From an uncultured Pelagibacteraceae bacterium (GTDB lineage Bacteria; Pseudomonadota; Alphaproteobacteria; Pelagibacterales; AG-422-B15), in assembly GCA_902622985.1 (NCBI GenBank), contig CACNSH010000010.1, forward strand, positions 1 to 32,110: DNA of 32,110 nucleotides, read 5' to 3'. A program made the translations under genes and the position numbers. Under the pieces are notes generated by a model. It had not been told where the DNA came from. It did no database searches and was given only the letters and a program-made list of their open reading frames with translations. This document shows positions 2,840-23,814 of the stretch, piece after piece (the first letter of the stretch is position 1; each line of letters begins with the position of its first letter).

Positions 2840-2841
2840 TT

Positions 2842-4206: not shown

Positions 4207-4209
4207 AAC

Positions 4210-4665
4210 TTACTTAATCTGTAGATAGTAATCGTAGTATTCGGTATCTCGTTGATAGTTTAATGACTCATAGAGACTTTGAGCATTTTTATTTGTTATA
4301 GCAGTCGATAACTCAACACTCGTTGCACCTTTTTCTTCAGCAAAACTTTTTGCAGCATTCATCAGCATACGTCCAATACCTTTATTTCTATATTCAGATC
4401 TCACATACAAGTCGTAGAGTATTATTTTTTTACTCAACTCCAGTGAGTCAAAAGTTGTGTACAACTGGGTCATGCCCATACATTCTTTTTCATTTTCAAT
4501 ATAAAATATTTGTGCCTCTTTATTACTAAGACGTTCCTTAATATAGTTTTTACAGGCTTCTACATTTGACTCCTTTTTATAAAACTGCCGATATAAATCA
4601 AAGACCTCACCAATTTTTTCGAAATCATCTGGTTGAGCAATTTTTATTTGTAAATCATCTGACAT
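4210..4665 (-). CDS. GNAT-family N-acetyltransferase
   Basis: The protein is 151 aa. The central block LYVRSEYRNKGIGRMLMNAA is the acetyl-CoA pyrophosphate loop (R/Q-x-x-G-x-G/A) of GNAT enzymes, and NKNAQSLYESLNYQ is the usual motif B end. The ATG at 4665 is chosen because GGAG lies 9 bp upstream (4675-4678); an upstream in-frame TTG (4680) would overlap the MFS gene stop. It lies 5 bp after the MFS gene on the same strand, so it is probably the last gene of a tetR-MFS-GNAT unit. The acceptor substrate is unknown. Confidence 0.82.
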   Translation of the reverse strand: MSDDLQIKIAQPDDFEKIGEVFDLYRQFYKKESNVEACKNYIKERLSNKEAQIFYIENEKECMGMTQLYTTFDSLELSKKIILYDLYVRSEYRNKGIGRMLMNAAKSFAEEKGATSVELSTAITNKNAQSLYESLNYQRDTEYYDYYLQIK

Positions 4666-8199: not shown

Positions 8200-9710
8200 T
8201 GTCAGACAATTACGACGTAATAGTGATTGGCGCAGGCCATAATGGTCTTGTTTGCGCTAATATTCTCGCAAAAAAAAACCGTAAAGTTCTGATTTGTGAG
8301 GCACGTGAGAATTGCGGGGGACTTGTTGAAGAGAGTATAACTAACTTTGTTCCTCAGATACCGCTGAGCGTATCAAGCTCTCTTGGTGGACTGCCAGTAA
8401 AGTATAAAGCAAAGTCTACGATTGCACTGTCAGAGTCTGGTCAACATATTCGCCTAGTTGGAAACCAACATATTGACCATAAAGTTATTTCTGGTTTCTC
8501 TTCGAAGGATGCAGACAGATATGTAGAATTTCATGATAAAATGTCCTCCTTTTCAAAGGCTTTAGGTTCTTTCATGATGGCTTCACCACCAAGGATCATG
8601 AACAATACTTTCTCTGATTATTTTAAATTATTCAAATTAGGCATGAATGTTCGAATGCTTGGAAAGAAAAAATTTAATGAGTTTGCAAGAATGATAGGGC
8701 TTAATATCGCGGACGAATTGGAAGACAATTTTGAAAATACTCTTTTGCAAGGTCTAATCGCCCATGATGCGGTGCTTGGTTCTAACTTGGGCCCAAGATC
8801 ACCCGGTTCATTGATTAATTTACTTTATCGCATGGCCACACATGACAACTCAATCTTTGGGGGAATATATGAAATTGATGGTGGCAGTAAAGCTTTTGTA
8901 GATACTTTGCTTGATATCAGTAATAAAAATAAAGTTGAAATTAAAACTTCTTCATCGGTTAAAAGATGCATTACTGAAAATGATAAAGCAATAGGAGTTG
9001 AACTTCACAGCGGTGAAAAAATTTATGCAAAAAAAATTATTTCTAATGCAGATCCAAGATCGACTTATTTTTGTCTTTTAGGAACTGAGAATTTAGACAC
9101 TGATGTGAAAAGAAGAATCAAACATCATCGATCAAAAGGAAAAGTTGCAAAATTATCATTAAGTCTCAATAAACAACCTGAATTTATTAACTGCGATAAA
9201 AATGATTTAGAAAGTAGAATGGTAATTGCTCCTTCAATTGATTATATAGAAGAGGCATTTAATCCAAGTAAGTTTGATAAACTTTCTATGGAACCTATTT
9301 TAGAAATGAAACTAAAAAATTCTGACCAGAGTAATCCTGTATTAGATATTCAAGTTCAATATGCTTCCTACGGTGCGCAGGAGGGTTGGGATAAAATTAA
9401 AGATAACTATGTAGATGCCGTTATAAAATTAATAGGGAAATATGCACCTGATATTCAAAGCTGTATAGAGACTAAAACAATTGTTACTCCCGACGACATA
9501 GAGAAAAATTTTTATGTTTCAGGCGGACATTGGCATCATGGAGAAATTCAAATCGATCAGCTTTTTATGCTCAGACCAATTCCTGGGGCATCACAATATA
9601 GAACCCATCTTGACGGACTATATATGTGTGGTGCAGGTACTCATCCGGGTGGAGGCTTAACTGGAATTCCAGGAAAAAATGCGGCTCAAGCTATCTTGGA
9701 GGACGCATAA
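8199..9710 (+). CDS. FAD-dependent oxidoreductase, phytoene-desaturase/PYROXD2-like (paralogue B)
   Basis: The protein is 503 aa. The FAD motif VIVIGAGHNGLVCA uses Gly11, Gly13 and Gly16, and the C-terminal flavin block is GAGTHPGGGLTGIPGKNAAQ. Segments such as DQLFMLRPIPGASQYRT align well with DQLMFNRPVPGYAQYRT in paralogue A, showing an old tandem duplication. Between the ends the two are quite different, so the substrates or roles (for example catalytic and structural) may differ. Its ATG uses the last base of the previous stop. The next gene begins 2 bp after its stop, and that gene's GGAGG lies within this coding sequence. Confidence 0.8.
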   Translation: MSDNYDVIVIGAGHNGLVCANILAKKNRKVLICEARENCGGLVEESITNFVPQIPLSVSSSLGGLPVKYKAKSTIALSESGQHIRLVGNQHIDHKVISGFSSKDADRYVEFHDKMSSFSKALGSFMMASPPRIMNNTFSDYFKLFKLGMNVRMLGKKKFNEFARMIGLNIADELEDNFENTLLQGLIAHDAVLGSNLGPRSPGSLINLLYRMATHDNSIFGGIYEIDGGSKAFVDTLLDISNKNKVEIKTSSSVKRCITENDKAIGVELHSGEKIYAKKIISNADPRSTYFCLLGTENLDTDVKRRIKHHRSKGKVAKLSLSLNKQPEFINCDKNDLESRMVIAPSIDYIEEAFNPSKFDKLSMEPILEMKLKNSDQSNPVLDIQVQYASYGAQEGWDKIKDNYVDAVIKLIGKYAPDIQSCIETKTIVTPDDIEKNFYVSGGHWHHGEIQIDQLFMLRPIPGASQYRTHLDGLYMCGAGTHPGGGLTGIPGKNAAQAILEDA

Positions 9711-9712
9711 AT

Positions 9713-10912
9713 ATGAATAGAGATTTAAGATTTACAGCACTAAAAAAAACCCCTTTTCACTCTAGAACAAGCTTAGCTTCAAGAACAAATAAATATTATA
9801 ACTGGAACGGTTTTACTGTACCCACAGAATACTCAACAACTGAGTTAGAATATACTGCTGCTAGAAATGGCACCTCAGTTATGGATCTCACACCTATGTG
9901 CAAATATATGATCAATGGCAGCGATGCTAATAAATTTGTTGATTATCTTGTAACAAGAGATTTATCACAGATGGAAGACAATACAGTAGCATACATAATT
10001 TGGTGTAATGAAGATGGTAAAGTAATGGACGATGGTACCATATTTAAATTTTCGAATACAAAATTTATGCTTTGCTGTGCAGTAAAGATCTATAATTGGC
10101 TACATGACTCTGCTGAAGGTTTTGATGTTTCTTTTGAGGATGCAACAGACACAACGGCTGCATTAGCAATCCAAGGACCTACTTCTTGTTCAACACTAAA
10201 AAACTACGGAGCAGATGACCTTGAATTATTAAAACCATTTGGAATGAAACAATATAATATTAACGGATATGATGTTTTGATCTCACGAACAGGCTTCACA
10301 GGTGATTTAGGATATGAATTATGGACTGATCCAGCTAATGCAGAAAACATGTGGGATAGTATCATGGAAGCTGGAAAAGAATTAAAGATAAGACCTTTTG
10401 GCATGCATGCTCTTGAGATGACAAGGATTGAAGCTGGCTTTATTCAAACCAATACTGATTTTATGGCAGCTGAAGATTCCTTAAGACCAGTGAGAATGCG
10501 TTCACCGTATGAAATTGGAATGGGTTGGCTTGTTCATCTCAATAAAGAAAGTTACTTTGTAGGCAAACGCGCTTTAAAGAAAGAAAAAGAGACAGGTAAT
10601 TCTGAAAGATGTTTAGTTGGATTGGACATAGATGGCGATAAGCCCGCAGTAGGCTCTGTGATTTATAATGAAAAAAAAGAAGATATAGGAATTGTTACCG
10701 CAGCAATGTGGTCACCTACCATGAAAAGAAACGTTGCGCTTGCGTCTCTAAAGCGTCCATATGGAATTAAGATTAAAGAAAATATTTTTGCAGAAATTTA
10801 TCACCCAGAGGAATTGGAATATAAAAAAATATGGGCAAAGTGTAAGGTTGTAAAAAGACAATTTTTTAGCCCTGAAAGACGTAACAAAGTACCTGCAGAC
10901 CTTTATGAATAG
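9713..10912 (+). CDS. GcvT-like aminomethyltransferase-family protein (folate-dependent demethylation)
   Basis: The 399-aa protein is related to the glycine-cleavage T protein and to the T-like domains of dimethylglycine/sarcosine dehydrogenases. Visible blocks are EDGKVMDDGTIFKF (family G-x-x-x-DD), ALAIQGPTS, SRTGFTGDLGYELW, MHALEMTRIEAGF and the C-terminal IGMGWLVHLNKE...FVGKRAL. Such proteins pass a methyl or methylene group from an amine to tetrahydrofolate. The ATG at 9713 has a strong GGAGG (9698-9702) 10 bp upstream, one of few in the window. It ends inside an intrinsic terminator. It is unlike DmdA at its N terminus. No glycine-cleavage H or P protein is nearby, so a catabolic one-carbon role is inferred. 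Confidence 0.82.
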   Translation: MNRDLRFTALKKTPFHSRTSLASRTNKYYNWNGFTVPTEYSTTELEYTAARNGTSVMDLTPMCKYMINGSDANKFVDYLVTRDLSQMEDNTVAYIIWCNEDGKVMDDGTIFKFSNTKFMLCCAVKIYNWLHDSAEGFDVSFEDATDTTAALAIQGPTSCSTLKNYGADDLELLKPFGMKQYNINGYDVLISRTGFTGDLGYELWTDPANAENMWDSIMEAGKELKIRPFGMHALEMTRIEAGFIQTNTDFMAAEDSLRPVRMRSPYEIGMGWLVHLNKESYFVGKRALKKEKETGNSERCLVGLDIDGDKPAVGSVIYNEKKEDIGIVTAAMWSPTMKRNVALASLKRPYGIKIKENIFAEIYHPEELEYKKIWAKCKVVKRQFFSPERRNKVPADLYE

Positions 10913-10979: not shown

Positions 10980-12377
10980 ATGCCCAAATCAACTTCGATT
11001 CCCGAAAAAAAAGATCTCCTTAATACTCTCGACGATAGAATTCTATACCCATGGCAGTATCTTGAGTATCGTGGTGAAGACAGCAGGACATTCATTGATA
11101 AGTCAAAAGGAATTTATCTTTACGATCAAACAGGAAGACAGCTTATTGATGGTCCTGGAGGAATGTGGAATGTTAACGTAGGACATGGCGTAAAAGAAAT
11201 TGCTGATGCTGTTTATAATCAGATTACAAGAATGCCCTACGCCAGCCCATTCACGGAGTCCACTGAGATTGCATATAACTATGCTTCACGACTTGTTAAA
11301 TATGCGCCCGGTGATCTTAAAAGAGTATTTTTCACGTCCGGAGGATCTTCAGCAGTAGACTCTGCATTAAGATTTGTAATGTTTTATAATAACGTTCGTG
11401 GGTTAAGAGATAAGAAACAAATTATCTCACGTCATGATGCATATCACGGTAGTACATTTTTAGGGGCTTCATGTTCAGGTAAAGAAAGAGATAAAAACAA
11501 CTTTGATTTTGCAGATAACTTAGTTCATCATTTGTCTGCGCCAAATCCTTTTAAAAAACCAGACGATTTAAGTGATGAAGAATTCTGTGATTTAAAAGTT
11601 AAAGAGTTAGAAAATAAAATTTTAGAACTTGGTCAAGATAAGGTCGCGGCATTTATTGCAGAGCCAATCCTAGCATCAGGCGGAGTAATTGTTCCTCCTA
11701 AAGGATATCACAAAAAGACAAGAGAAATTTGTACTAAGTACGATGTTATTTATATTTCTGATGAGATAGTAACCGGATTTGGAAGGTTAGGTCATATATT
11801 CGCTTCAGAAAATTATTTCGATTTAGAACCTGATATCATCCTTTTAGCAAAAGGGATTACTTCAGGATACGTACCTTGTGGTGCGGTTGTTATTTCTGAA
11901 AAGCTTATGTCTCAACTTGATAATAAAGAAAAAGTTATATTTTCAAATGGATTTACTGACTCGGGTCACCCAGTGAGCATGGCAGCAGCTACAGCAACAC
12001 TTGATTATATTGAAAAAAATAACCTCCTTGAACATGTACAGGAAGTCGGCCCTTATTTTCAATCTAAATTAAGTGAATTAATTGATCTACCGATTGTTGG
12101 CGATGTACGTGGTGAGGGATTAATGGCTGCTGTTGAATGTGTAATCAGTAAAGAAAAAAAAGATCCTCTGAATTTACAATACGAGATCGCTTCTCGCATC
12201 AATTCTCATTGTCAAAATCTTGGTTTAATTGTTAGACCGCTATTTAATACGTGTGTCATGTCTCCTTCTTTGATCATCACTAAGGAACAGATAGATGATC
12301 TCGTAAGTATACTTAGAAAAGGAATTGAGTTAGCTACAGATGACATCAAGAAAGAAGGCCTTTGGTCTGCATCTTAA
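10980..12377 (+). CDS. Class III PLP aminotransferase
   Basis: The 465-aa fold-type I enzyme shows GGMWNVNVGHG near 60-70, AYHGSTFLG, SDEIVTGFGRLG with PLP-contacting Asp261, and Schiff-base Lys291 in LLAKGITSGYVPCG. The loop usually written SGSEAN is TSGGSSAVDSA here, so the phosphate-binding region is atypical and marks a distinct subgroup. It lacks the HPFTDY start of the 2842 enzyme and is only a distant relative of it. It is first in the operon with a Rieske oxygenase, a PuuB-like oxidase and a PotABC-type transporter, so it probably removes the amino group from a product of that pathway. Donor and acceptor are not predictable. Confidence 0.82.
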   Translation: MPKSTSIPEKKDLLNTLDDRILYPWQYLEYRGEDSRTFIDKSKGIYLYDQTGRQLIDGPGGMWNVNVGHGVKEIADAVYNQITRMPYASPFTESTEIAYNYASRLVKYAPGDLKRVFFTSGGSSAVDSALRFVMFYNNVRGLRDKKQIISRHDAYHGSTFLGASCSGKERDKNNFDFADNLVHHLSAPNPFKKPDDLSDEEFCDLKVKELENKILELGQDKVAAFIAEPILASGGVIVPPKGYHKKTREICTKYDVIYISDEIVTGFGRLGHIFASENYFDLEPDIILLAKGITSGYVPCGAVVISEKLMSQLDNKEKVIFSNGFTDSGHPVSMAAATATLDYIEKNNLLEHVQEVGPYFQSKLSELIDLPIVGDVRGEGLMAAVECVISKEKKDPLNLQYEIASRINSHCQNLGLIVRPLFNTCVMSPSLIITKEQIDDLVSILRKGIELATDDIKKEGLWSAS

Positions 12378-12381
12378 ATAA

Positions 12382-13620
12382 ATGCTTGAGTTTAACCATC
12401 TGCTAAAAAACTATCAGGAGGGTAAAACATTACCCCAAGACTTTTATACAGATTCGAATATTTTTTCCGAAGAGATGAAGCGAATTTATTTCAAACAGTG
12501 GTTAATGGTAGATCACATCAGTCGTATTCCTAATCCAGGTGATTATTTTGTTTTTGATGCCGAAAAGGAGTCCATCATAGTTATTAGAGGAAGAGACAAT
12601 GAAGTAAGAGCATTTTATAATGTTTGCACTCATCGAGGATCAAGAATTTGTTTAGATGAAGAGGGATCAAAAAAACTTTTAGTGTGTCCCTATCATGCTT
12701 GGAGTTTTTCAGCAGAAGGTGAACTTAAAGCTGCACGTTTTATGCCGGAGGATTTTAAAAAAGAAGAGTGGGGTCTTAGAGAGTGCCATTATAAAATTTA
12801 TGAAGGATTAATATTTATTAACTTATCATTAGAAGAACCAATGAATTTTGATGAATTCATTGAGCCTCTAAAAGAAATGATGGAATTTCATCAGACGAGT
12901 AAGTCAAAAATTGCGATAAGAAAAAAATATCCAACTCATGCAAATTTTAAATTAGTTCTTGAAAATTTTCAGGAGTGTTATCACTGTCCTACAGCACATC
13001 CAGAGCTTTGTGCAGTACAGGATAAAGACTGGGTTGTCGCAATGGGTGCTGGAATAGGTACTGCACCTCAAAAAGAGACTGATGAATATCTAAATAAAAT
13101 TAAACCTTGGGTCGAGGAATGTAAAAAAAATGGAACTCCGTCTGAGGTTTATCTTGAAACAGAAGAAGGATTAAAAAAAGGCTTAAACAGATATGTTGAC
13201 AGAACTCCAATTGGAAACGGAAACTTATCACAAACCAAAGATGGAAAGCCAGCTTCTTCACTAATGGGACAGTTTAAAGATTTTGATGGAGGATTAACCC
13301 AAGTAAGCTTTAATCCATTTGGCTGTTGTTATTTCACAAATGATTTTGGCGTCATGTTTATTTTTAAACCCATCTCACTTCTAGAGTCTGAAGTGGAACT
13401 TATATGGCTCGTAAACGAGGAAGCTGAGGAGAATAAAGACTTTAAGCCCGAGGAAGTAAGCTATATTTGGGATGTTACTACGGCGCATGATACAACAATA
13501 ATTGAAAATAACCAGGAAGGCCTTCTATCACAATCTTTTAAACCTGGAGTTTTATCTGAAAATGAGTCAGCGGTAACTTACTTTTATAATTGGTATTTTA
13601 CCAACATGCAGTTACCATAA
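12382..13620 (+). CDS. Rieske non-heme iron oxygenase, quaternary-ammonium (GbcA/CntA/stachydrine demethylase-like)
   Basis: The protein is 412 aa. The N-terminal Rieske domain binds 2Fe-2S through Cys82-x-His84 and Cys102-x2-His105. The catalytic domain has ENFQECYHCPTAHPE: Glu198, His201 and His206, with Asp370 in the AHDTTIIENNQEG block as the third iron ligand. Glu at position 198, rather than Asp, as the bridge between clusters is known from carnitine monooxygenase CntA and is usual in betaine/choline-type oxygenases. Such enzymes demethylate or cleave quaternary amines with O2. No reductase partner is encoded in the window. It follows the aminotransferase by 4 bp and precedes a PuuB-like oxidase by 17 bp. 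Confidence 0.88.
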   Translation: MLEFNHLLKNYQEGKTLPQDFYTDSNIFSEEMKRIYFKQWLMVDHISRIPNPGDYFVFDAEKESIIVIRGRDNEVRAFYNVCTHRGSRICLDEEGSKKLLVCPYHAWSFSAEGELKAARFMPEDFKKEEWGLRECHYKIYEGLIFINLSLEEPMNFDEFIEPLKEMMEFHQTSKSKIAIRKKYPTHANFKLVLENFQECYHCPTAHPELCAVQDKDWVVAMGAGIGTAPQKETDEYLNKIKPWVEECKKNGTPSEVYLETEEGLKKGLNRYVDRTPIGNGNLSQTKDGKPASSLMGQFKDFDGGLTQVSFNPFGCCYFTNDFGVMFIFKPISLLESEVELIWLVNEEAEENKDFKPEEVSYIWDVTTAHDTTIIENNQEGLLSQSFKPGVLSENESAVTYFYNWYFTNMQLP

Positions 13621-13637: not shown

Positions 13638-14993
13638 ATGAAGCAACTTTATAACAAAGATATTTACGACGTTAATAAGCCAGTAAAAAGTTATTGGGAA
13701 AAAGTCAGTCAAATAGAACAAGACAAATATCCTAAGCTCACAACTGATGAAAGCTGTGATGTTTGTGTAATAGGTGGCGGCTTTACTGGAATAAGTACAG
13801 CTTATCACATTGCAAAAAATTACAGCGGTGACGTAAGATTACTAGAGGCAGGGCATTTTGGATTTGCAAGCAGTGCAAGGAATGCTGGCTTTTGTTGTTT
13901 GCCTGCAACAAAACTATCGGTCAACCAACTGATTGCAAAGTTTGGCCTGGATGAAACAAAGAAATTTTTTTCTTCTCAAATTGAAGGTGTTGAACTTTTA
14001 TCCTCACTTATTTCGGAAAATAATATTGAATGTGAAAAAACTGGCACAGGCAATCTAGATGTTGCTCATCACCCTGATAGCAGTGAGGAACTAAAGGAGT
14101 GGGGCAACGATCTTAAAAAATATTTTGGTATTAACACCAAGTGGATACCCAAAGAGGAGTTTGATGAAGTTGGACATCAATCAACAGAACAATTTGGAGC
14201 TGTTTTTACTGAAGCAGGATTTGCAATGAACCCAATGGCTTTTATGAATGGCTTTGCATCAGCAACTGTTGATGTGGGAGCGAAACTTCATAGTTTTTCT
14301 AGAGTGAAAAAATGGGAAAGAAACGGTTCGCATAAATTAATTACAGATAGCGGATCGATTACTGCAAATAAGGTTGTTGTTGCAACAAATGGATACACAG
14401 ATGAGTCTCTTCATCCAAGTTTTGCAAATAGAATGATGCCTGTTTTATCAAATATAATTGTTACTAGAGAAATGTCAGAAGACGAGTTCAAACTACAGAA
14501 CTACAAAACTCTTAATCCAATCTGCAACTCTAGAGAGATCTTGTATTATTATAGAAGAATGCCTTCAAACAGGATGTTATTTGGAACAAGAGGCGACACC
14601 TACGGTGATGAAAAAAGCGCAGAGAGAATGCAAGAATTCATGACAAAAAAATTTCGTGGGGTATTTCCAAATTGGGACAAGGTCGATATTGATCATTATT
14701 GGAGAGGCACTGTTGTTATGACTCGTGACTTTGTTCCCGCATTTGGTGCATTAGAAGAAGATAAGTCTGTATATTTTTCATACGGCTATCAAGCTAACGG
14801 TAATAATACAACTGTCTATTGTGGTAAAAAATTAGCTGAAATGATTTACGAGTCAAATAGTGGGGAAACAAACATTTCAAAAGTCTATCAGGGCCTATCA
14901 CCTAAAATCCCATTTGGATTTTTAAGACTTTGGTATTTAAGATTATATTTGTGGTATGCTAATCTCACGGATAGAAGCAAAAAAGAAATATAA
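13638..14993 (+). CDS. DAO-family FAD oxidoreductase (gamma-glutamylputrescine oxidase / PuuB-like)
   Basis: The 451-aa protein has an N-terminal extension ending in SYWEKV, then the FAD motif VCVIGGGFTGISTAYHIA (Gly46-Gly51), a LLEAGHFGFASSARNAGFC flavin loop, and a C-terminal VYFSYGYQANGNNT block where the family has GY-x-GHG. PuuB oxidises gamma-glutamylputrescine; relatives oxidise sarcosine, dimethylglycine or N-methyl amino acids, so secondary-amine oxidation is the safest call. The ATG at 13638 is preferred because an upstream in-frame start would lie inside the Rieske gene and add non-conserved residues. A 36-bp AT-only gap separates it from the permease gene. Confidence 0.83.
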   Translation: MKQLYNKDIYDVNKPVKSYWEKVSQIEQDKYPKLTTDESCDVCVIGGGFTGISTAYHIAKNYSGDVRLLEAGHFGFASSARNAGFCCLPATKLSVNQLIAKFGLDETKKFFSSQIEGVELLSSLISENNIECEKTGTGNLDVAHHPDSSEELKEWGNDLKKYFGINTKWIPKEEFDEVGHQSTEQFGAVFTEAGFAMNPMAFMNGFASATVDVGAKLHSFSRVKKWERNGSHKLITDSGSITANKVVVATNGYTDESLHPSFANRMMPVLSNIIVTREMSEDEFKLQNYKTLNPICNSREILYYYRRMPSNRMLFGTRGDTYGDEKSAERMQEFMTKKFRGVFPNWDKVDIDHYWRGTVVMTRDFVPAFGALEEDKSVYFSYGYQANGNNTTVYCGKKLAEMIYESNSGETNISKVYQGLSPKIPFGFLRLWYLRLYLWYANLTDRSKKEI

Positions 14994-15029: not shown

Positions 15030-15914
15030 ATGTTTCAAGCTTGGCGAAATTTATACTCTAAGAGTGATAATGCAAAAGCATATTCATTACTGTCTCCTGC
15101 ATTATTTTTAATAATTCTCGTAATGCTTATTCCTATGGCATTAATGCTAAGTTTTAGCTCTTTTACACAAGTAAGCATGATGGAGATTGATTTCACTCCA
15201 ACATTTCAGCGATACATTGACTTTTTTGAAAAAAGTTTGCTTGTCTCGCTTCTCATTAAGTCGGTTAAAATATCATTCATTGTAACACTGATCACTCTTC
15301 TAACAGCGTACCCTGTATGCTATTACATCGCTTTTTATGTGAAAAAAAACAAAATGTTATGGTTAGTTTTATTAACCTTACCTTTTTGGACTTCATACCT
15401 ATTAAGAGTATTTTCTTGGAAAATCATACTGGGCACCAAAGGAGTTTTCAATTCAACATTATTAGGTGCAGGCATTATTAGTGAGCCTCTTACATTTCTT
15501 ATGTACTCGGAGGAAGCTGTTATTATTACTCTAACACATGCTTGGGCAGCATTTGCTTTATTACCACTTTACGTGTCTCTTGAGAAAATAGACTTTTCAT
15601 ATATTGAAGCTGCAAGAGATCTAGGTTTATCAAAATTTGAAGTATTTTGGAAAGTGACATTTCCTCTTTCCTTGCCAGGTGTCATTGGTGCGATTTTAAT
15701 AATATTTATTCCAACTGTAGGTGATTATGTAACGCCTGCCTTAATTGGGGGCACTGAGGGAAGAATGTTATCAAATATGATCCAAGCTTATTTTGGAAAA
15801 ATAAACAATATACCACTTGGAGCGGCATCAGCCACAATCATGCTGACGACCGTTATTCTCATAACAGCAATTGTCTCATACACAACAAAAAGACTTACAC
15901 AGAGGCTTTCTTAA
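15030..15914 (+). CDS. ABC transporter permease, PotB-type
   Basis: The 294-aa inner-membrane protein has about six transmembrane helices and the cytoplasmic coupling (EAA) loop YIEAARDLGLSKFEVFWKVTFPLSLPG. FWTSYLLRVFSWKIILG is the PotB-family block. It pairs with the following PotC-type permease (3 bp apart) and the PotA-type ATPase. The family takes up spermidine, putrescine and other cationic amines from the binding protein. The 36-bp AT-rich gap before it could contain an internal promoter, but none is clear. Given the operon, the substrate is probably the methylated amine degraded by the enzymes upstream (inference). Confidence 0.9.
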   Translation: MFQAWRNLYSKSDNAKAYSLLSPALFLIILVMLIPMALMLSFSSFTQVSMMEIDFTPTFQRYIDFFEKSLLVSLLIKSVKISFIVTLITLLTAYPVCYYIAFYVKKNKMLWLVLLTLPFWTSYLLRVFSWKIILGTKGVFNSTLLGAGIISEPLTFLMYSEEAVIITLTHAWAAFALLPLYVSLEKIDFSYIEAARDLGLSKFEVFWKVTFPLSLPGVIGAILIIFIPTVGDYVTPALIGGTEGRMLSNMIQAYFGKINNIPLGAASATIMLTTVILITAIVSYTTKRLTQRLS

Positions 15915-15917
15915 ATC

Positions 15918-16727
15918 ATGAATGAAAAAAACAATTCACTTCTAGTTTACACATTAATATATTTTGGTTTTCTCTATATACCGGTTCTTTTTTTACCGAT
16001 TTTCAGTTTTAATGATGCAAATTATATGTCATTTCCATTAGCAGGATTTACCACAGATCATTATGAGGAAATGTGGTCAAAGCGAAACTTACATAAAGCT
16101 TTATGGGCGAGCGTTAAAGTCGGCGTTGTTGCAAGCGTTGTAAGTACAGCAATTGCACTTCTCGCTGCAAAGGCATTTGTTAGATACAAATTTAGGGGTC
16201 AGAATGTTTCTTACGGAGCCATAATGATGCCGTTTTTAATACCAGAAATTATTTTAGCAGTATCAATATTAATTATATGGATCAACCTTGGTTTTCCATT
16301 GGGTCTGGTTCCAGTAACAATAGGACACATATTATTTTGCACTCCATTTGCAATGTTGATATTGATTGCGCGAATAGAAGGTTTTGACTTTTCTTTAGAA
16401 GAAGCTTCACGCGATTTAGGGGAAAATGCATGGGGAACTTTTTACAGAGTATCACTACCTCTTTATTTGCCAGGTATAATAGCAGCTTTATTACTAAGTT
16501 TTATTATATCCTTTGATGAATTTATTCTGGCATTCTTTCTATCTGGCAGTGATGCAACTTTACCAATGTATATGTGGAATCAAATGCGATTTGTGAAAAA
16601 ACTCCCACATGTACTTGCTTTGGGAGCGGTGATAATTGTGTTTACTACTTTTATTGTTTTGTTAGCATTCTGGTTGAGAAATGTTGGACAAGGCAAAGAA
16701 AAAAAGGATATAGCTATTAAATTATAA
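15918..16727 (+). CDS. ABC transporter permease, PotC-type
   Basis: The 269-aa protein has about six helices. The EAA loop reads LEEASRDLGENAWGTFYRVSLPLYLPG, and SFIISFDEFILAFFLSG is the strongly conserved PotC block. It lies 3 bp after the PotB-type gene and 6 bp before the ATPase gene, a standard PotB-C-A arrangement, here with the ATPase last instead of first as in E. coli potABCD. No Shine-Dalgarno precedes the ATG, so coupling to the upstream gene is likely. Confidence 0.9.
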   Translation: MNEKNNSLLVYTLIYFGFLYIPVLFLPIFSFNDANYMSFPLAGFTTDHYEEMWSKRNLHKALWASVKVGVVASVVSTAIALLAAKAFVRYKFRGQNVSYGAIMMPFLIPEIILAVSILIIWINLGFPLGLVPVTIGHILFCTPFAMLILIARIEGFDFSLEEASRDLGENAWGTFYRVSLPLYLPGIIAALLLSFIISFDEFILAFFLSGSDATLPMYMWNQMRFVKKLPHVLALGAVIIVFTTFIVLLAFWLRNVGQGKEKKDIAIKL

Positions 16728-16733
16728 AAAAAT

Positions 16734-17816
16734 ATGAACGAAAATTTTATTCAGATAAATGGAATTTCAAAACATTTTGGAAATGTAAAAGCAGTTGATG
16801 ACGTCTCTTTTTCAATTAAAGAAGGAGAGTTCTTTTCTTTGTTGGGTCCATCAGGATGTGGAAAGACAACTTTACTTCGATTGTTAGCAGGATTTGAATA
16901 TCCAACAAATGGTAATTTATTAATCGATGGCAGTGATATCACCGCATTGCCTCCTGATAAAAGACCTACAAATATGGTATTTCAAAACTACGCCATATTT
17001 CCTCACATTAATGTTGAGCAAAATATAAAATTTGGATTAAGAAAACTTGGTTTGACTGATGACGAAATTAAAAAAAGAGTTGACGATGTTTTAGCCCTTG
17101 TAAAGCTTGAGGGTTATGAGGAAAGATTCAGTGGGCAATTATCTGGTGGGCAAAGACAGCGTGTTGCGTTAGCAAGAGCTTTAGTTAGACAACCAAAAGT
17201 TCTTTTATTAGATGAGCCTCTTGGAGCATTGGATAAAAAATTAAGAGACGAAATGCAACTTGAATTGAGAACGCTACAGAAAGAAATTGGAATTACCTTT
17301 GTATTTGTAACTCATGATCAACAAGAAGCCATCAGCATGTCTGATAGAGTTGCTGTTATGAGTGAAGGCAAGATACAACAACTTTCTGCTCCAAATGAAC
17401 TTTATAAGAACCCAGAAAATATTTTTGTAAGTGATTTCATTGGAGAAACAAACTTTTTAAAAGCATCTACAAAGTCAAAAGATGGCGATCAAATTAATGT
17501 TGCGATTGAAGATCTTGGTGATTTTAAAGTCAAGAATAACCTAAATATTCCAGAGAATTCATCTGATGTTGTTTGTAGTGTTCGACCAGAGTCAATGATG
17601 ATTTCTAGAGATAAATCTGATTGGGATATTTGCTTAGAAGCAAAAATAAATCAGACTTCCTACTTAGGGGAAATGACAAGATTTTATGTTGAGGTATCAG
17701 GAATAAATAAAGTAATAACTGTATCATCCCAGCACTTTGATAATCAGTCATTTGAGAATAATTCTTGTTTTATAAGTATTAGCTTAGAAGATATTAGCTT
17801 ACTGCAAAAAAAATAG
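16734..17816 (+). CDS. ABC transporter ATP-binding protein, PotA-type
   Basis: The protein is 360 aa. It has Walker A GPSGCGKTT (38-46), Q-loop Gln84, signature LSGGQRQR (136-143), Walker B LLLDEP (157-162), and the H-loop in VTHDQQEA. The C-terminal TOBE-type regulatory domain (about 235-355) contains SVRPESM, usual for PotA/MalK-like importers. It energises the two permeases just upstream. The stop codon lies within a hairpin terminator shared with the convergent binding-protein gene. No Shine-Dalgarno is present. Confidence 0.93.
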   Translation: MNENFIQINGISKHFGNVKAVDDVSFSIKEGEFFSLLGPSGCGKTTLLRLLAGFEYPTNGNLLIDGSDITALPPDKRPTNMVFQNYAIFPHINVEQNIKFGLRKLGLTDDEIKKRVDDVLALVKLEGYEERFSGQLSGGQRQRVALARALVRQPKVLLLDEPLGALDKKLRDEMQLELRTLQKEIGITFVFVTHDQQEAISMSDRVAVMSEGKIQQLSAPNELYKNPENIFVSDFIGETNFLKASTKSKDGDQINVAIEDLGDFKVKNNLNIPENSSDVVCSVRPESMMISRDKSDWDICLEAKINQTSYLGEMTRFYVEVSGINKVITVSSQHFDNQSFENNSCFISISLEDISLLQKK

Positions 17817-17865: not shown

Positions 17866-18990
17866 TTAACCGCCAGCAGTCATTTCTGCCCACTGAGCTT
17901 CCATGTAATCCGTTACATCATCTGGTGGCATTACTGAGAATGCACCATTCGCTAAGTGTTCAGCTGGGTTTGGAGCAACTCCTCTTTCAGCTAGCTCATC
18001 TGCAGTAAGTGAGCCAAAGCCTTTTTGGTTAGAGTGTCCATAACCCCATTCGCTTAATAGATAAGCTGAAGTTTCGGCACTAGTTGCAGCGTTAATCATG
18101 TCATAAGCAACATCTAGATTTGCACCTGTTGCAATTGCAAGTCCGCATGCCCATGTCATTGTACCTTCAACAGGACGCATCATTGGGTAACCAGTCTCCC
18201 ATGATGTTTCATTCCAACAAATTGAAGCCCAGACCTCTTCGTTTCCAATTGCTTCAGCAATAGAAGCAGAGTCAGCGAAGAATGTTCTAATGTTTCCATT
18301 ATCTCTGAGTTCACGGAACTTATTGATACCTTGATCAATAGCCGCTTTATTTAATTGGTTAATGTCCTTAATGTCTGTTCCTAGATAATGCATCATCAAG
18401 AATAAACTATCGGCAGCACTATCAAGTACTCCAATTTTACCTTTCATTCTTGGATCTTCTAAGAGATATAGACTTTCATTACCTGGTTGCATCCAAGTGA
18501 CTTTATCAGTGTTGTACACAATGCTTGTGTCTCCCCAGTCAACCGGTGCAAAATAGTTTTGTCCGTTAACTATACCACTTGGTAAGTCTCTAACTTCTGG
18601 GAACATATCTCCCCAGTTTTCTAATCTTGATGTGTCCAGTGGCTGAATAACACCAGCTCTTACCCATCGTGCAATTTCACCTTGGCAAGGCCAAGCAACA
18701 TCAACTTCAAAACCAGCTTTTAATTTTTGAAGACCTTCTTCCGCATCTCCAAAAGTTGAATATTCTGGTGATCCGTGAGCTTCAACATATGGTCCAAAAA
18801 GACCATCGTCATCATAACCGCCCCAAACAAAAGCACGTCCAGTAGATGCAAATGCATTAGTAGCAGGAACAAGACCGGATGTTAAACCTAGAACACCAGC
18901 TGCACCCATACCCTTTACAAAAGACCTACGACTTACCTTGCCTTCTCGCAAGTTATCAATGAACTTTTTAGTTACATCGTATTTTGGCAT
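17866..18990 (-). CDS. Extracellular solute-binding protein, PotD-type, Tat-exported
   Basis: The 374-aa protein has a twin-arginine signal SRRSFVKG (20-27), a hydrophobic stretch, and a likely cleavage after AFA near residue 48, so it folds before export to the periplasm. The mature part is of the PotD/spermidine-putrescine binding family: FVWGGYDDDG, VAWPCQGEIARW, YFAPVDWGDTSIVYNTDKV. An aromatic-rich segment CWNETSWETGYPM could form a cation box for a quaternary amine (inference). The start has AAGGAT 9 bp upstream and a good promoter. It is convergent with potBCA rather than in their operon, giving independent, probably high, expression of the binding protein. Confidence 0.9.
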   Translation of the reverse strand: MPKYDVTKKFIDNLREGKVSRRSFVKGMGAAGVLGLTSGLVPATNAFASTGRAFVWGGYDDDGLFGPYVEAHGSPEYSTFGDAEEGLQKLKAGFEVDVAWPCQGEIARWVRAGVIQPLDTSRLENWGDMFPEVRDLPSGIVNGQNYFAPVDWGDTSIVYNTDKVTWMQPGNESLYLLEDPRMKGKIGVLDSAADSLFLMMHYLGTDIKDINQLNKAAIDQGINKFRELRDNGNIRTFFADSASIAEAIGNEEVWASICWNETSWETGYPMMRPVEGTMTWACGLAIATGANLDVAYDMINAATSAETSAYLLSEWGYGHSNQKGFGSLTADELAERGVAPNPAEHLANGAFSVMPPDDVTDYMEAQWAEMTAGG

Positions 18991-19060: not shown

Positions 19061-20554
19061 TCAATCAAAAACTGGCCGATTTTTCACATTATTTAGCCAT
19101 GGATCGACCATTTCGTAGTTGTATCCTCCTTGAAATACTAGTTCATCACTGTAGGAGCGTGAAATAATCTGAATGCCAGTAGGCACTTGATTTGAACTAA
19201 AGCCAGAGGGTACGGAAAGGACTGGTAGTTTGCCCAACATATTGAATGGGTGAGACATACACCATGCAAAGTCAGCACATTCTTGTTCTTTTCCATTAAT
19301 AATGACGCGTTCGTTAACTATATCAATATCAGCTTTGATTGCCGGTAAGGCATTGGTAGGGCAAATAAATAAATCATATTTTTCCAATATTGGACCGATT
19401 TCTTCATACATTTTTCCAGTCACCACTGCACTTTCTTCAACGCCATAACCCAAGTGAGCACCAATTTGTTCGTGATAAATTTTTTTATTATTTTTTAAGG
19501 AGTCAATGTGCATTTCAGTAACACCACTGAACATTTTTGTGTAATCACTCAACTGCTCTTTTTCAGAATTTGAAAGCTCAGAAATTTCTTTATAAAAAGA
19601 ATTTGCGTAATGACTGAAGCAAACCGAATTTACTTCATCTTTTTTCCAATTAAGTTTCACCTCTGTGACCTGACATCCAAGACTTTCAAATTTTTTTAAT
19701 GCCGTCAGCGTATTCTGTTCTACTTCTTTATCAATCTCAAAAAATCCTAAGTCCATTGAATAAGCAATTTTCCAATTTTTAATATTTTCGTAATTTAATG
19801 GTAATGTTTTTTTTGGACGTAAAGATGTTATGTCTTTTTGGTTTGGTCCACACATAATGTTTTGCATCATTGCAGTATCAACCACTGTTCTTGCGAGTGG
19901 TCCTGTTACACAGTAAGGGTCATGATTGAATGGATAACTTTGAGCATTTCTTCCATGAGGTGGCTTGAATCCAACTACGCCGCATGCACCTGCTGGTATT
20001 CTTATTGAACCTCCAATGTCACTTCCTGTTGTCAACATTGCACAACCTGAAGCTAATGCAGCCGCACTGCCTCCACTTGATCCACCAGGTGTCATATCTA
20101 AGTTCCAAGGGTTTCTTGTTACGCCATTTAGTTTTGAGTGACAAAAAGAAGTGAGAGAAAATTCTGGATTGGTTGTGCGACCGTGAAGTATCGCGCCAGA
20201 ATTGACTATTGTTTCAACATCAATATCAGTTTTCTTTGCGATATTATTCTTGAGAAGTAAGCAACCATTGCGATTTGGTTGCCCTTTTATATTCACTTCG
20301 TCTTTTATTGCCAAAGGTAATCCTTCAAGAGGCAGAACATCATTATTATTGGAAAATTTTTTCTCAGATTCTTTTGCAAGTTCTATAGACTTATCAAAAT
20401 CAAGATAATTAAATGCATTTATCTTAGGATTAACTGTTTCTATTCTTTTAATTACAGCCGACAGGACTTCAACTGGAGATAATTTTTTTTCTTTGTACTT
20501 CTTTAATGTATCTGAAGCGGATAAATAACAAATTTCAATATCAGTATCATTCAT
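19061..20554 (-). CDS. Amidase-signature family hydrolase
   Basis: The protein is 497 aa. The Ser-cisSer-Lys triad is visible: Lys84 in PLAIKDEVNIKG, Ser159 in the TPGGSSGGSAAALASG signature, and nucleophile Ser183 in TTGSDIGGSIRIPAG, with the same relative spacing as in GatA. It cleaves an amide of unknown nature. It is not gatA: no gatB or gatC is nearby, and the C-terminal part is of the general amidase type. It is divergent from the Rieske-less oxygenase gene with a 52-bp AT-rich gap. With the PuuA-like synthetase two genes on, it could act on amide intermediates of the pathway (inference). Confidence 0.85.
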   Translation of the reverse strand: MNDTDIEICYLSASDTLKKYKEKKLSPVEVLSAVIKRIETVNPKINAFNYLDFDKSIELAKESEKKFSNNNDVLPLEGLPLAIKDEVNIKGQPNRNGCLLLKNNIAKKTDIDVETIVNSGAILHGRTTNPEFSLTSFCHSKLNGVTRNPWNLDMTPGGSSGGSAAALASGCAMLTTGSDIGGSIRIPAGACGVVGFKPPHGRNAQSYPFNHDPYCVTGPLARTVVDTAMMQNIMCGPNQKDITSLRPKKTLPLNYENIKNWKIAYSMDLGFFEIDKEVEQNTLTALKKFESLGCQVTEVKLNWKKDEVNSVCFSHYANSFYKEISELSNSEKEQLSDYTKMFSGVTEMHIDSLKNNKKIYHEQIGAHLGYGVEESAVVTGKMYEEIGPILEKYDLFICPTNALPAIKADIDIVNERVIINGKEQECADFAWCMSHPFNMLGKLPVLSVPSGFSSNQVPTGIQIISRSYSDELVFQGGYNYEMVDPWLNNVKNRPVFD

Positions 20555-20606: not shown

Positions 20607-21701
20607 ATGATAAGTGAAAAAATCAAAAGTTTAATACAGAGCCAAGATCCACACGCAGGAATGGATCAACTTTTCTTTACAAATTCAGAGATATTTCATG
20701 CAAGTTATGACGCAATTTTCAAAAAACAATGGGTTTTTCTCACCCATCTTTCGTACTTTAATCAAAACGATATCTTTACATACAACTTAAATAAAGGATT
20801 TATAGAGATAAAAAAAACAGATGATAATCAACTTTCAATATCCGCATCTGATCCAAATATTAAGTGTCATTTAAAAGTGTATGAGAGTTTAGTATTTATC
20901 AATTTATCAAACTCTCCCTATTCATTTGATGAATTCATTAAACCACTTGAACCATACATCAAAATACATGGACTGAATGATGGTAAGATTGCTTTTCAAA
21001 AAGATTTTATTTTTAATGCTTCACATTTAGCTACAATTCATAACTTTAAAGAATGCGCTCATTGCTGGGGAGGCGAATTTACGCACAAAGATTATCTAAG
21101 TGTGCATGGTGAAGATTATTGCAATTCTTATGGAGCAGGTGTTGGTTCGGGGATTGAGGCCCCTAAACTTATAAAACGTATTAAAGAGTGGACAGAACAA
21201 ACTTTAAAAAGAGGTTTATTTGTTGGAGAGTTCAGTGAACATGACTCAAAATATTTTAGAATTGCAGAGCGCACTCCTTTACCTGAAGGTATTGCATCAG
21301 AAACAATGGATGGTAGTTATTCTTGTTCAACATTGATGGGTGATTTTAGGAAGATTGGTGCTGACAATGGTTATACTGCAATTGGTTTCAGCCCATTTAA
21401 CAGCTTTGTTGCAAATAACGAATTTGTGATACTTTTTTTATTCTCACCAATTAGTCAAAATAAAACAGTAGTGACCCAATACTGGGTAACTCATAAAGAT
21501 GCGGAAGTTGATGTCGATAAAATGATTTTTTTGTGGGACCAAACTTCTACTGAAGATTCCCAGTTATGTGAAATGAATCAAAAGGGAATTGAAAGCAGGT
21601 CCTATCAGCCTGGCAAATATGGGGATTTAGAGACGAGCTTAGTTCAATATCAGAAATTTTACCTTAATCATTTACAGACACACCTGAACGACTTAGTCTA
21701 A
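20607..21701 (+). CDS. Rieske-type oxygenase paralogue lacking the Rieske domain
   Basis: The 364-aa protein aligns with the 12382 oxygenase outside one segment. Residues 65-78 match the start of the Rieske region, and residues 85-101 (IKCHLKVYESLVFINLS) match 132-149 of the full enzyme, so about 47 residues with all four 2Fe-2S ligands are gone. In the catalytic domain NFKECAHCWGGE keeps Glu149 and His152 but has Glu157 where the second His should be; Asp317 (TEDSQLCEMNQ) matches the third ligand. NdmC of the caffeine demethylase complex is a known oxygenase without its own Rieske domain. It could be a partner subunit, a pseudoenzyme, or use an external Rieske donor. The reading frame is intact. 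Confidence 0.8.
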   Translation: MISEKIKSLIQSQDPHAGMDQLFFTNSEIFHASYDAIFKKQWVFLTHLSYFNQNDIFTYNLNKGFIEIKKTDDNQLSISASDPNIKCHLKVYESLVFINLSNSPYSFDEFIKPLEPYIKIHGLNDGKIAFQKDFIFNASHLATIHNFKECAHCWGGEFTHKDYLSVHGEDYCNSYGAGVGSGIEAPKLIKRIKEWTEQTLKRGLFVGEFSEHDSKYFRIAERTPLPEGIASETMDGSYSCSTLMGDFRKIGADNGYTAIGFSPFNSFVANNEFVILFLFSPISQNKTVVTQYWVTHKDAEVDVDKMIFLWDQTSTEDSQLCEMNQKGIESRSYQPGKYGDLETSLVQYQKFYLNHLQTHLNDLV

Positions 21702-21719: not shown

Positions 21720-23090
21720 ATGGAACTTGCAACACAATCAGAATTTGATGAAGTGCTTAATCGTCATCATAATATCCAATATGTAGACGCAATATTTACA
21801 GACCTCTGTGGATATGTAAGGGGAAAAAGATTTCCAGTACTAGAGGCAGATAAAATTTTTTCAGATGGTGTATTGTTACCTTTTTCAGCATTTTATTTAG
21901 ATGTCCTCGGTGGCGTAACCAACACGATGAATCTTGGTTGGACTGACGGAGATCCAGATGGAGTTTTAATGCCCGTTAAAAATTCCATAAAGCCCGTCCC
22001 TTGGGATAGCAAGGTTCTTCAAGTACTAATTTCTATGAGAAAAGAACAGGAAAAATGGGGTGTAATAGAAAACCCGGCGGAAGTTGACCCAAGAAATATT
22101 TTAGAAAAAGTAATGAATAAATTCAAAGGCACCGGATTTAATCCAGTAGTGGCTTTTGAATTAGAGTTTTATTTGTTGGATAAGAAAAGAAATCAAGAAG
22201 GTAAACCAGTTCCTGCATTAGGTGCGAGTAAAACTCATGTATATGGAATTCCTGATCTTGATATGTTTGGGGATTTATTTAATGAAATTAACGAGAACTG
22301 TAAAATTCAAGATATCCCTGCAACAACAGCTTCAAGTGAATTTGCTGCTGGCCAATATGAAATTAATTTAAAGCATACCGGTGATCTGCTTAAAGCAGCG
22401 GATGATGCAGCAATGTTAAGAAGAATAATAAAAGAAACAACTGCAAAGCATGGGTTTGAGGCAACATTTATGGCAAAGCCATTTCTTGAGGAGACTGGAA
22501 ATGGAATGCACCTGCATATTTCAGTGTACGATGATGATGGAAAAAATATTTTTGCAACTAAGAATCGTTACGGAAATGATAAGTTAAAAAATGCTTTAGC
22601 TGGTTTTCAAGAAACTTTTTATGACTCATTTCCAATATTTATTCCAAATAGAAATGGTTATCGAAGAATACAAACCCGAAATTTTGTTCCTGTAAATAAA
22701 AGTTGGTCTTGGAATCGAAGAGATGTTTCATTGAGAATACCCGCTGGATCAGATAGTGCAAAAAGAATTGAACACCGGGTAGCATCAGCTGATGCAAATC
22801 CATATCTTGTTTTAGCCTGTATCCTTTCTGGACTTCACCACGGACTTACAAGAAAACTCTCACCAACAGACCAAGTAAGTTTTGATAACACTGAGGGTGC
22901 TGACAAAACTGCTGATCCTGAAATGCCAAAAAATATGGAGTCTGCATTAAATCGTTTTCAAGAATCAAAAATTTTATCTAAGTATTTAGGAAAAGAGTAT
23001 CTTGATTTATACGTATCAGCCAAAGAAGGTGAATTTGAACATATGGATAACAGTTTCATACCTTCAGAAGAATACGATTTTTATTTATAG
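21720..23090 (+). CDS. Glutamine synthetase-family ligase (gamma-glutamyl-amine synthetase / PuuA-like)
   Basis: The 456-aa protein carries the GS fold with metal-binding Glu147/Glu149 (FELEFYL), Glu208 and Glu214 (SEFAAGQYEIN), His264/His266 (GNGMHLHIS), and NRRDVSLRIPAG...RIEHRVASADANPYL with Arg339 and Glu351. The last block, with RIEHR and ADANPYL, is characteristic of PuuA-type ligases that join glutamate to an amine using ATP. No adenylylation-site pattern of GlnA is seen at the C terminus. It may activate a primary amine (putrescine, methylamine or ethanolamine are the known substrates of relatives). It is followed 4 bp later by the AlaX gene. Confidence 0.85.
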   Translation: MELATQSEFDEVLNRHHNIQYVDAIFTDLCGYVRGKRFPVLEADKIFSDGVLLPFSAFYLDVLGGVTNTMNLGWTDGDPDGVLMPVKNSIKPVPWDSKVLQVLISMRKEQEKWGVIENPAEVDPRNILEKVMNKFKGTGFNPVVAFELEFYLLDKKRNQEGKPVPALGASKTHVYGIPDLDMFGDLFNEINENCKIQDIPATTASSEFAAGQYEINLKHTGDLLKAADDAAMLRRIIKETTAKHGFEATFMAKPFLEETGNGMHLHISVYDDDGKNIFATKNRYGNDKLKNALAGFQETFYDSFPIFIPNRNGYRRIQTRNFVPVNKSWSWNRRDVSLRIPAGSDSAKRIEHRVASADANPYLVLACILSGLHHGLTRKLSPTDQVSFDNTEGADKTADPEMPKNMESALNRFQESKILSKYLGKEYLDLYVSAKEGEFEHMDNSFIPSEEYDFYL

Positions 23091-23094
23091 ATTT

Positions 23095-23814
23095 ATGACT
23101 GACCTTCTTTTCAATCAAGATAGTTACTTAAAAGAAACAGAAGCCAGTATTATTGGAGTTGAAGAAAATATTATACAATTGGATAGAACAATTTTTTATG
23201 CAGAGTCAGGTGGACAACCTGGAGATCAAGGTGAGATTGTATTAAAGGACCAAGTTCTCAAAGTTGTAGATACTAAAAAAGGATCGAAGCCAAATGAAAT
23301 TTTGCATATTGTTGACGGCCCTATTGATCAAAGTTTAATTAATCAATCTGCTGAACTTAAGATCAATTGGGAACTCAGATATGCTCATATGAAAATGCAT
23401 TCCAGTTGCCACATTTTGTGTAGCTTAGTTGACGCCCTTATAACAGGCGCATCGGTTGGAAGTGCTAAATCAAGAATAGACTTTGATGTTGATCCATCAA
23501 TGCTAAATAAAGAAGAATTAAATGAGAAGATTAGGGATATTATTAGTAAAGACTATCCCATAATCATAAATCAAATTACAGGAGATGAACTTAAATCAAA
23601 TCCTCACTTAGCGAAAGGAGCTGCCGTTTCACCTCCAGTTATAGATAACAAAGTACAAACAGTTCAAATTGGTGAGGGAGAAAACATTATCGATCTTCAA
23701 TGTTGTGGAGGAACACATTGCCAATCTACAAAAGAAATTGGACCACTTGAGATTGGAAAGATTGAAAATAAAGGTAAAAGAAACAGGCGAATTAATATAA
23801 GGTTTAGTTCATGA
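23095..23814 (+). CDS. Alanyl-tRNA editing protein (AlaX, medium form)
   Basis: The 239-aa protein resembles the editing domain of alanyl-tRNA synthetase. It has FYAESGGQPGDQG (34-46), the zinc motif His102-x3-His106 in MHSSCHIL, and Cys204-x3-His208 in QCCGGTHC. AlaX hydrolyses Ser- (and sometimes Gly-) mischarged tRNA-Ala. The ATG at 23095 is 4 bp after the synthetase stop; an upstream in-frame ATG inside that gene adds non-family residues and is rejected. The stop overlaps the crotonase ATG by 4 bp. Its place inside a catabolic operon is odd and may indicate a pathway intermediate that AlaRS mischarges, or recruitment of the fold for another hydrolysis. Confidence 0.88.
   Translation: MTDLLFNQDSYLKETEASIIGVEENIIQLDRTIFYAESGGQPGDQGEIVLKDQVLKVVDTKKGSKPNEILHIVDGPIDQSLINQSAELKINWELRYAHMKMHSSCHILCSLVDALITGASVGSAKSRIDFDVDPSMLNKEELNEKIRDIISKDYPIIINQITGDELKSNPHLAKGAAVSPPVIDNKVQTVQIGEGENIIDLQCCGGTHCQSTKEIGPLEIGKIENKGKRNRRINIRFSS

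Follow-up and report, generated by a model that had tools for sequence, protein, structure and literature searches.

An uncultured Pelagibacteraceae bacterium carries, close to a complete Rieske oxygenase (RO), a paralogue of that enzyme (RL) from which the lobe that would hold the [2Fe-2S] cluster is missing and in which the positions of the mononuclear iron site are kept. Both genes lie in the stretch of DNA analysed here, which spans 32,110 nucleotides and is called the window. Sequence comparison makes it well supported that RL is a real, conserved and odd protein, and the mechanism that we propose for it is plausible: RL would be a catalytic subunit without a cluster of its own that is fed by the Rieske centre of RO in a mixed trimer and oxidises an amine, a reading to which we assign a probability of roughly 0.5. 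Because RL fails the defining Rieske feature by sequence, we call it a cluster-less paralogue rather than a true Rieske oxygenase. If RL is nonetheless an oxygenase of this kind, only a neighbour's cluster could serve, since it has none itself, and its occurrence near a complete paralogue offers a clean natural test of the intersubunit electron route in Rieske oxygenases. RL also indicates that the cluster lobe is removable while the base strands of the Rieske domain stay. The protein is widespread in one SAR11-type marine family, in a conserved gene cluster resembling amine uptake and breakdown, and may matter for how methylated nitrogen compounds are turned over in the ocean. In the open PMC literature, we found no paper describing RL.

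The missing cluster-binding lobe and the iron-site positions

RL is encoded by an intact open reading frame with exactly the borders given in Table 1 and is 364 aa long. It aligns with RO (412 aa) at 34% identity in a MAFFT pair alignment, and the Pfam model Ring_hydroxyl_A is matched by RL and RO alike, which bears out the sequence-only reading of this DNA in taking RL for a paralogue of the 412-aa enzyme at 12382. The glycine betaine monooxygenase GbcA is the top NCBIfam model for both proteins, with 137 bits over residues 87-361 of RL and 297 bits for RO against a cut-off of 670, and the best PDB sequence matches of RO are to 3n0q and to stachydrine demethylase. The Pfam Rieske model (PF00355) is matched by RO at E 7.5e-17 and left unmatched by RL at E <= 1. 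In the alignment, the 2Fe-2S ligands of RO (C82, H84, C102 and H105) find no partner in RL, and by both Pfam and the alignments RL lacks the Rieske ligand signature CxH...CxxH. Between the anchors N73 and C135, RO has 61 residues, whereas between the corresponding N74 and C87, RL has 12; this net loss of 49 residues agrees closely with the earlier claim that about 47 residues, with both Cys and both His, are absent between aligning flanks. On the upstream side, RL residues ~14-74 align with the N-terminus of RO and the first strands of its Rieske domain, and from C87 on (CHLKVYESLVFINLS) RL aligns downstream of the deletion in pair, multiple and profile-profile alignments. The further claim that the entire Rieske domain is missing was too strong, as the base strands align and are modelled at pLDDT 92-95. 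Since these flanking strands are kept, only the cluster-binding subdomain has been excised from its base.

Table 1. Positions in the window of RL, its landmarks and the neighbouring genes, with the basis for each assignment.
Feature	Coordinates	Strand	Basis or remark
Two tandem CrtO-like FAD oxidoreductases	6571..9710	+	Homologues side by side, same order, in Parasedimentitalea
GcvT-like folate-dependent aminomethyltransferase	9704..10912	+	GCV_T and GCV_T_C
Class-III aminotransferase	10980..12377	+	PRK07036, 644.7 bits (cut-off 618); PF00202
RO, GbcA/Stc2-like Rieske oxygenase of full length (412 aa), candidate electron donor to RL	12382..13620	+	Rieske and Ring_hydroxyl_A
DAO-type FAD oxidoreductase	13638..14993	+	PF01266
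ABC transporter permeases and ATPase	15030..17816	+	ORFs; ATPase 47% identical to annotated Parasedimentitalea ABC ATPase
PotD-like substrate-binding protein	17866..18990	-	SBP_bac_8; PotD model 48 bits, below cut-off 582
Amidase, divergent neighbour of RL	19061..20554	-	PF01425; absent from the G440 cluster
RL, Rieske oxygenase alpha-type without [2Fe-2S] cluster-binding subdomain	20607..21701	+	ORF; Ring_hydroxyl_A yes, Rieske no
Remnant Rieske base strands, RL ~41-74	20727..20828	+	Strands 43-47, 56-60 and 65-70 at pLDDT 92-94
Junction, RL residues 75-86, in place of 61 residues of RO incl. C82/H84/C102/H105	20829..20864	+	Alignments
Glu149, bridging-Glu equivalent (CntA E205)	21051..21053	+	Invariant 39/39
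His152, first His ligand position	21060..21062	+	Invariant; aligned with RO H201
W154-G155-G156-E157, lengthened inter-His loop	21066..21077	+	Invariant 39/39; insertion absent from G440 RL and aligned full-length oxygenases
His160, second His ligand position	21084..21086	+	Aligned with RO H206; invariant
Asp317, carboxylate ligand position	21555..21557	+	Aligned with RO D370; invariant
Glutamine-synthetase-like (GS-like) ligase, next after RL	21720..23090	+	Gln-synt_C; follows RL in 41/41 loci

At the iron site, RL NFKECAHCWGGEFTHKDYL stands opposite RO NFQECYHCPTAHPELC, and it had been proposed that His206 of RO is here replaced by Glu157. This pairing is a product of a gapless reading that puts the following residues out of register. 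Scored with BLOSUM62, the local alignment of RL and RO reaches -1 without a gap and +68, after gap penalty, with one 3-residue gap; for RL against three other relatives, the scores are 11, 15 and 1 without the gap and 89, 88 and 72 with it. The alignment with one 3-residue gap is therefore preferred. In it, His206 corresponds to His160, Glu157 falls within a lengthened loop, and a 3-residue insertion turns the H-x4-H of RO into H-x7-H in RL. The same placement of His160 on the second His was obtained in MAFFT alignments of 2, 6 and 31 sequences, in a profile-profile alignment, by BLASTP with the distant RL of another genome (G440) and by phmmer with 3n0q. A Glu-for-His ligand swap was rejected on these alignment scores and on the RL of G440, which reads ECYHCGPAH at this place and has no insertion.

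All iron-site positions, two His and one Asp (His152, His160 and Asp317), are thus found at homologous places in RL with the His spacing changed. Present as well are E149, the bridging Glu, and the two Cys that flank the iron site, C150 and C153. Across 39 RL sequences, comprising that of the window and 38 orthologues, E149, C150, H152, C153, W154, G155, G156, E157, H160 and D317 are invariant, in keeping with the earlier statement that Glu149, His152 and Asp317 are retained. A family search for orthologues with the same deletion and the Glu substitution had been suggested as a check; the deletion recurred and Glu157 proved invariant (39/39), but not as a substitute for His. Further invariant Cys residues of RL are found at positions 172, 240 and 321, the last of them four residues past the Asp ligand position.

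We modelled RL with AlphaFold from an alignment of 31 sequences (15 RL, 12 RO and four distant oxygenases from viral contigs) and obtained a mean pLDDT of 74.3 and a pTM of 0.79; a model built from 28 of the 39 RL sequences had a pLDDT of 43.7, was unusable and was set aside. Searched against the PDB with Foldseek, the model has 3n0q and the stachydrine demethylase Stc2 as its top matches (TM 0.77-0.79 by query length, E 2.2e-24 to 4.3e-22), followed by the carnitine monooxygenase CntA (E 2e-14), with an rmsd of 5.0-5.9 Å over the five best PDB folds. As modelled, the overall fold of RL is stachydrine-demethylase-like, a match that depends on homology because oxygenases were present in the input alignment of the model. 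In this structure prediction of RL alone, a mononuclear iron pocket would sit in an Stc2-like fold, but residues 150-185, the iron loop, are modelled at pLDDT < 50. Together with the H-x7-H spacing and the long stem of the window-type RL proteins described below, this poorly modelled loop means that canonical iron binding may have been lost.

Conservation, gene neighbourhood and origin of RL

We scanned the genome contigs of GTDB r220 by exact peptide patterns of the window's RL, a search by which distant forms such as the RL of G440 are missed. Every one of the 41 loci that it yielded has a title naming Pelagibacteraceae or Pelagibacterales; in them RL is whole 38 times (67-99% identity, one without its first four residues) and cut by contig ends three times. 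The lobe deletion is identical in 38 of the 38 orthologues long enough to judge; a full Rieske domain in the orthologues of close relatives, which the sequence-only reading had named as evidence against itself, was looked for and did not appear. Among the matches listed, RL occurs in 43 of the 53 genomes of the window genome's family (whole or nearly so in 40, cut by contig ends in 3) and in 11 of the 12 family genomes that are at least 90% complete, G442 being the exception. Again among the matches listed, 36 of the 53 have both RL and RO, 7 have RL only, 4 have RO only and 6 have neither, and in all 7 genomes with RL only the contig ends short of the expected place of RO.

Within the reach of their contigs, all 41 loci share one gene order, which runs GcvT, aminotransferase, RO, DAO-type oxidoreductase, ABC permeases, ATPase, the reversed binding protein and amidase, RL and the GS-like gene. 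RO is present in all 30 loci that reach its place (cut in two of these), the other 11 having less than 5.2 kb upstream of RL, and the amidase is the direct neighbour of RL in 37 of the 41, the remaining four starting at or within RL. In one locus (L055), the aminotransferase match is in two pieces. For nine pairs hand-picked across subclades, several of which have dS > 1 and are near saturation, dN/dS was 0.062-0.140 for RL in 9 of 9 and 0.029-0.070 for RO in the 6 that were computable; the other three RO pairs were dropped for a missing row, the merging of identical proteins or an RO incomplete in the locus. That the deletion recurs throughout a bacterial family, that synteny is kept and that the low dN/dS shows purifying selection all uphold the earlier judgement that the gene is not simply decaying.

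We then counted invariant positions over 26 rows (the window and 25 loci), using segment borders set by hand. In the remnant Rieske strands (RL residues 41-86), 10 of 46 positions are invariant in RL versus 24 of 35 in RO, and in the active-site segment the counts are 38 of 45 in RL versus 28 of 42 in RO, so that this segment is at least as conserved in RL as in RO and may be more so. For the catalytic domain taken as a whole, RL and RO are alike (164 of 259 and 154 of 258, respectively). Constraint is lost on the Rieske remnant and kept on the pocket, and of all the sequence evidence this speaks most strongly for RL still acting at the pocket.

To trace the origin of RL, we built a tree by maximum likelihood from 404 of 536 columns of an alignment of 46 sequences, which comprised 25 of 43 loci from the class and phylum samples described below, eight window-type RL proteins (that of the window and 7 of the 38), the RL of G440 and 12 RO proteins of the family. 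The RL proteins, including that of G440, form one clade (97/92), which is sister to the family's RO clade with moderate support (85/73) and long branches; the nearest outside row (L104) is a long branch too, and the stem of the window-type RL proteins measures 1.18 changes per column. The RL of G440 is 39% identical to that of the window, carries the same deletion with a canonical ECYHC-GPA-H motif and no insertion, and lies in a cluster (L118) of the same gene order without the amidase. One RL clade sister to RO points, at this moderate support, to a duplication followed by a single loss of the cluster lobe and then by the WGG insertion on the long branch. The lobe would have been lost once, prior to the split of the G440 line from the window-type RL proteins, and the RL of G440, in which the lobe is deleted and the iron motif canonical, allows the two steps to be told apart.

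Outside the family, no Rieske-less relative was found among 43 loci (29 from the class, 14 from the phylum), of which 42 carry the Rieske motif; the remaining locus, L084, is truncated where its contig stops. The samples behind these loci, which are no census and both include the window's own genome, held 385 genomes of the class (46 matched) and 398 of the phylum (57 matched), and matches beyond the 43 loci were judged by open-frame lengths alone. A sample of 397 genomes of the order had 51 matched, the four outside the family being weak (E 8e-5 to 8e-4) with frames of 400-410 aa. Of the scans of viral contigs, some were without any relative and others had four distant oxygenase loci each. 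Locus L113 (genome G816, 617-1965) has a Rieske oxygenase in two overlapping frames, by frameshift or as a broken gene, with the motif in one piece, and locus L085 (genome G437) has a Rieske oxygenase match with one in-frame TGA. In locus L120 (genome G475, 1756-4508), the place of the DAO oxidoreductase next to RO is taken by an ORF that looks, by eye, like an aldehyde dehydrogenase; RL was looked for in this genome, which is 61% complete, and was not found.

The binding protein, ABC transporter (genes that are presumably potB-, potC- and potA-like), GcvT-like protein, aminotransferase, FAD oxidoreductases and GS-like ligase around RL together suggest a pathway that imports and degrades some methylated amine or a compound resembling a polyamine. 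In an amine cluster, the tandem CrtO-like oxidoreductases are doubtful as carotenoid enzymes. Two genes 3' of RL, at 23002-23814, is a protein with alanyl-tRNA-synthetase-like and tRNA_SAD domains, which we take to be of the AlaX type. Homarine was considered as the substrate and dropped, as nothing in the open PMC literature ties it to the cluster. On plasmid pW43C of Parasedimentitalea marina (L151, 7049-25277), four full-length Rieske oxygenases are encoded in a FAD1-FAD2-GcvT-aminotransferase-ABC cluster that is related to the one here. Identities to its proteins are 59% for FAD1, 33% for FAD2, 43% for GcvT, 48% for the aminotransferase, 47% for the ATPase, 38% for the binding protein and 32% for RO_a; DAO and amidase are unmatched among the 11 pW43C proteins compared, and no RL-like cluster-less oxygenase is found within the 25.5 kb read from this plasmid.

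Electron supply and possible roles of RL

Given that the lobe is lost and the iron-pocket residues are unchanged, RL probably borrows electrons from RO. We envisage RL as a duplicated alpha subunit of the Stc2/CntA/GbcA type that has lost its cluster-binding subdomain and that would assemble with RO as mixed trimers. Electrons would pass from the Rieske cluster of the neighbouring RO subunit through Glu149 to an RL iron bound at His152, His160 and Asp317, with Cys150 and Cys153 beside it, and the substrate would be a methylated or alkylated amine imported by the adjacent transporter. Precedent for such a route comes from CntA, for which, as for the other known systems below, we draw on excerpts of the cited papers. 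Electrons in CntA pass from the Rieske site of one subunit to the iron of an adjoining one over a distance of 12.2 Å, versus 44 Å between the two sites within one subunit (PMC7948474), a geometry in which a cluster-less subunit beside a complete one would be possible. The role ascribed to CntA E205, the equivalent of Glu149, is to pass electrons from the neighbour's Rieske centre (PMC10952381, PMC7948474); of the E205 mutants made, none was active according to the excerpt (PMC7948474), and a Cys pair is likewise described beside the iron of CntA (PMC10952381). Phe147 of RL lies opposite the substrate-binding Tyr203 of CntA by counting from the bridging Glu, CntA being unaligned there. With E149, the Cys pair and the aromatic F147 all kept in RL, a mixed RO/RL trimer would let the RO cluster feed the RL iron. 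Several points run counter to this proposal. Besides the altered His spacing, the poorly modelled iron loop and the moderate tree support given above, RL lies 7 kb 3' of RO, behind two opposite-strand genes, and by position is not co-transcribed with it, and a GbcB/CntB-type reductase as donor to RO was found in none of four genomes. RO, with all of its own sites kept, may be self-sufficient.

The four genomes searched for such a reductase through FAD_binding_6 (PF00970) were that of the window (87% complete) and G019, G439 and G440 (98-100% complete), with a control that was positive in 8 of 14 known genomes. At E <= 0.001, each of the four has two frames that match Fer2, a small one of 112-133 aa and a larger one of 693-839 aa, and a three-component chain via ferredoxin is possible. 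PF00355 occurs in three places in the window's genome, namely in RO, in a 380-aa oxygenase and in a 174-aa frame, the last of which is too short for an NdmD-like reductase. An NdmD-like Rieske reductase was sought as an alternative donor through PF00355 in the window's genome and FAD_binding_6 in the four genomes, and was not found.

More tentatively, RO and RL might form an obligate hetero-oligomer throughout the family, in which RO would act as both enzyme and donor and RL would contribute a remodelled H-x7-H site, to which Glu157 might add a further ligand; two different catalytic pockets would then share one Rieske set, and we consider this arrangement possible but clearly short of probable.

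A different role, which we think unlikely, is that of a non-catalytic pseudoenzyme subunit that binds RO to regulate or stabilise it, or that binds substrate, in the manner of a beta subunit. A structural subunit would have no obvious need for an active-site segment that, at 37 of 45 positions invariant, has the highest share among nine segments counted in RL, and it also speaks against this role that none of the 39 sequences departs from the ligand residues, the bridging Glu or the two Cys. What this role would explain is the loss of the cluster, the altered spacing of the His pair and the fast evolution on the window-type RL stem, and beta subunits without catalytic centres are known for Rieske oxygenases (PMC12445004).

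We regard it as similarly improbable that RL is an iron enzyme that works without any Rieske donor, whether by direct supply from a [2Fe-2S] ferredoxin, with peroxide or in a non-redox metal-dependent step. The gene adjoins the GS-like gene and not RO, and it points away from the preceding amidase; all four genomes have the small Fer2 frame, while FAD_binding_6 was found in none of them; Glu157 and the WGG insertion are innovations that do not vary; and CntA is capable of a peroxide shunt (PMC10952381). The retention of Glu149 is harder to accommodate, since its CntA equivalent relays electrons from the neighbour's Rieske centre (PMC10952381), and so is the finding that, among the matches listed, RL stands without RO in 7 of 43 genomes, all of them with a contig that stops before RO could be reached. 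Finally, decay of the gene, or an error of sequencing or assembly, was rejected and deserves next to no credence, since 38 of 38 orthologues from different genomes carry the deletion, it is common to a relative at 39% identity, dN/dS is 0.06-0.14 and nothing was found in favour.

Comparison with known Rieske systems

GbcA belongs to the Group V Rieske oxygenases. With it and with Stc2 (3vca, 4qup), 3n0q and CntA (6zgp, 6y9d), RL shares the fold, the E-C-x-H-C motif, the second His and the Asp position; unlike Stc2, CntA and GbcA, it is without the cluster-binding subdomain with its CxH...CxxH signature and has a 3-residue insertion between the His pair. A division of cluster and iron between proteins, as proposed here for a cluster-less RL fed by RO, has a parallel in the chlorophyllide a oxygenase (CAO) of Micromonas, in which one chain bears the cluster and the other bears the iron. 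The M. pusilla CAO is described as a Rieske oxygenase in two polypeptide chains (PMC9615114), but the cluster-bearing RO retains a complete iron site (E198, H201, H206 and D370) and the pair is therefore not of the CAO type. The alpha subunits of Rieske oxygenases are each described as having a cluster domain and an iron domain, and two different oxygenases are known to share one alpha3alpha'3 assembly in NdmA/NdmB (PMC12445004); in the available description both of these bear Rieske clusters, unlike RL (PMC4408171).

The comparison with NdmC that was drawn in the sequence-only reading is apt as a functional analogy, in that NdmC, the N7-demethylase subunit for caffeine, is by its description also of the non-heme iron oxygenase type and without its own Rieske cluster (PMC4408171), and RL would likewise need that of another protein. 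The likeness goes no further, as the cluster of NdmC has moved to the reductase NdmD, with NdmE as a helper (PMC4408171), whereas the candidate donor to RL is a complete paralogous oxygenase and RL keeps the base strands. Of the NdmC-type traits, the absence of the Rieske domain is thus seen in RL, and the Rieske-bearing partner reductase is not. By analogy, RL matches neither NdmC nor CAO exactly, and its likely donor would be the complete paralogous oxygenase encoded in the same cluster.
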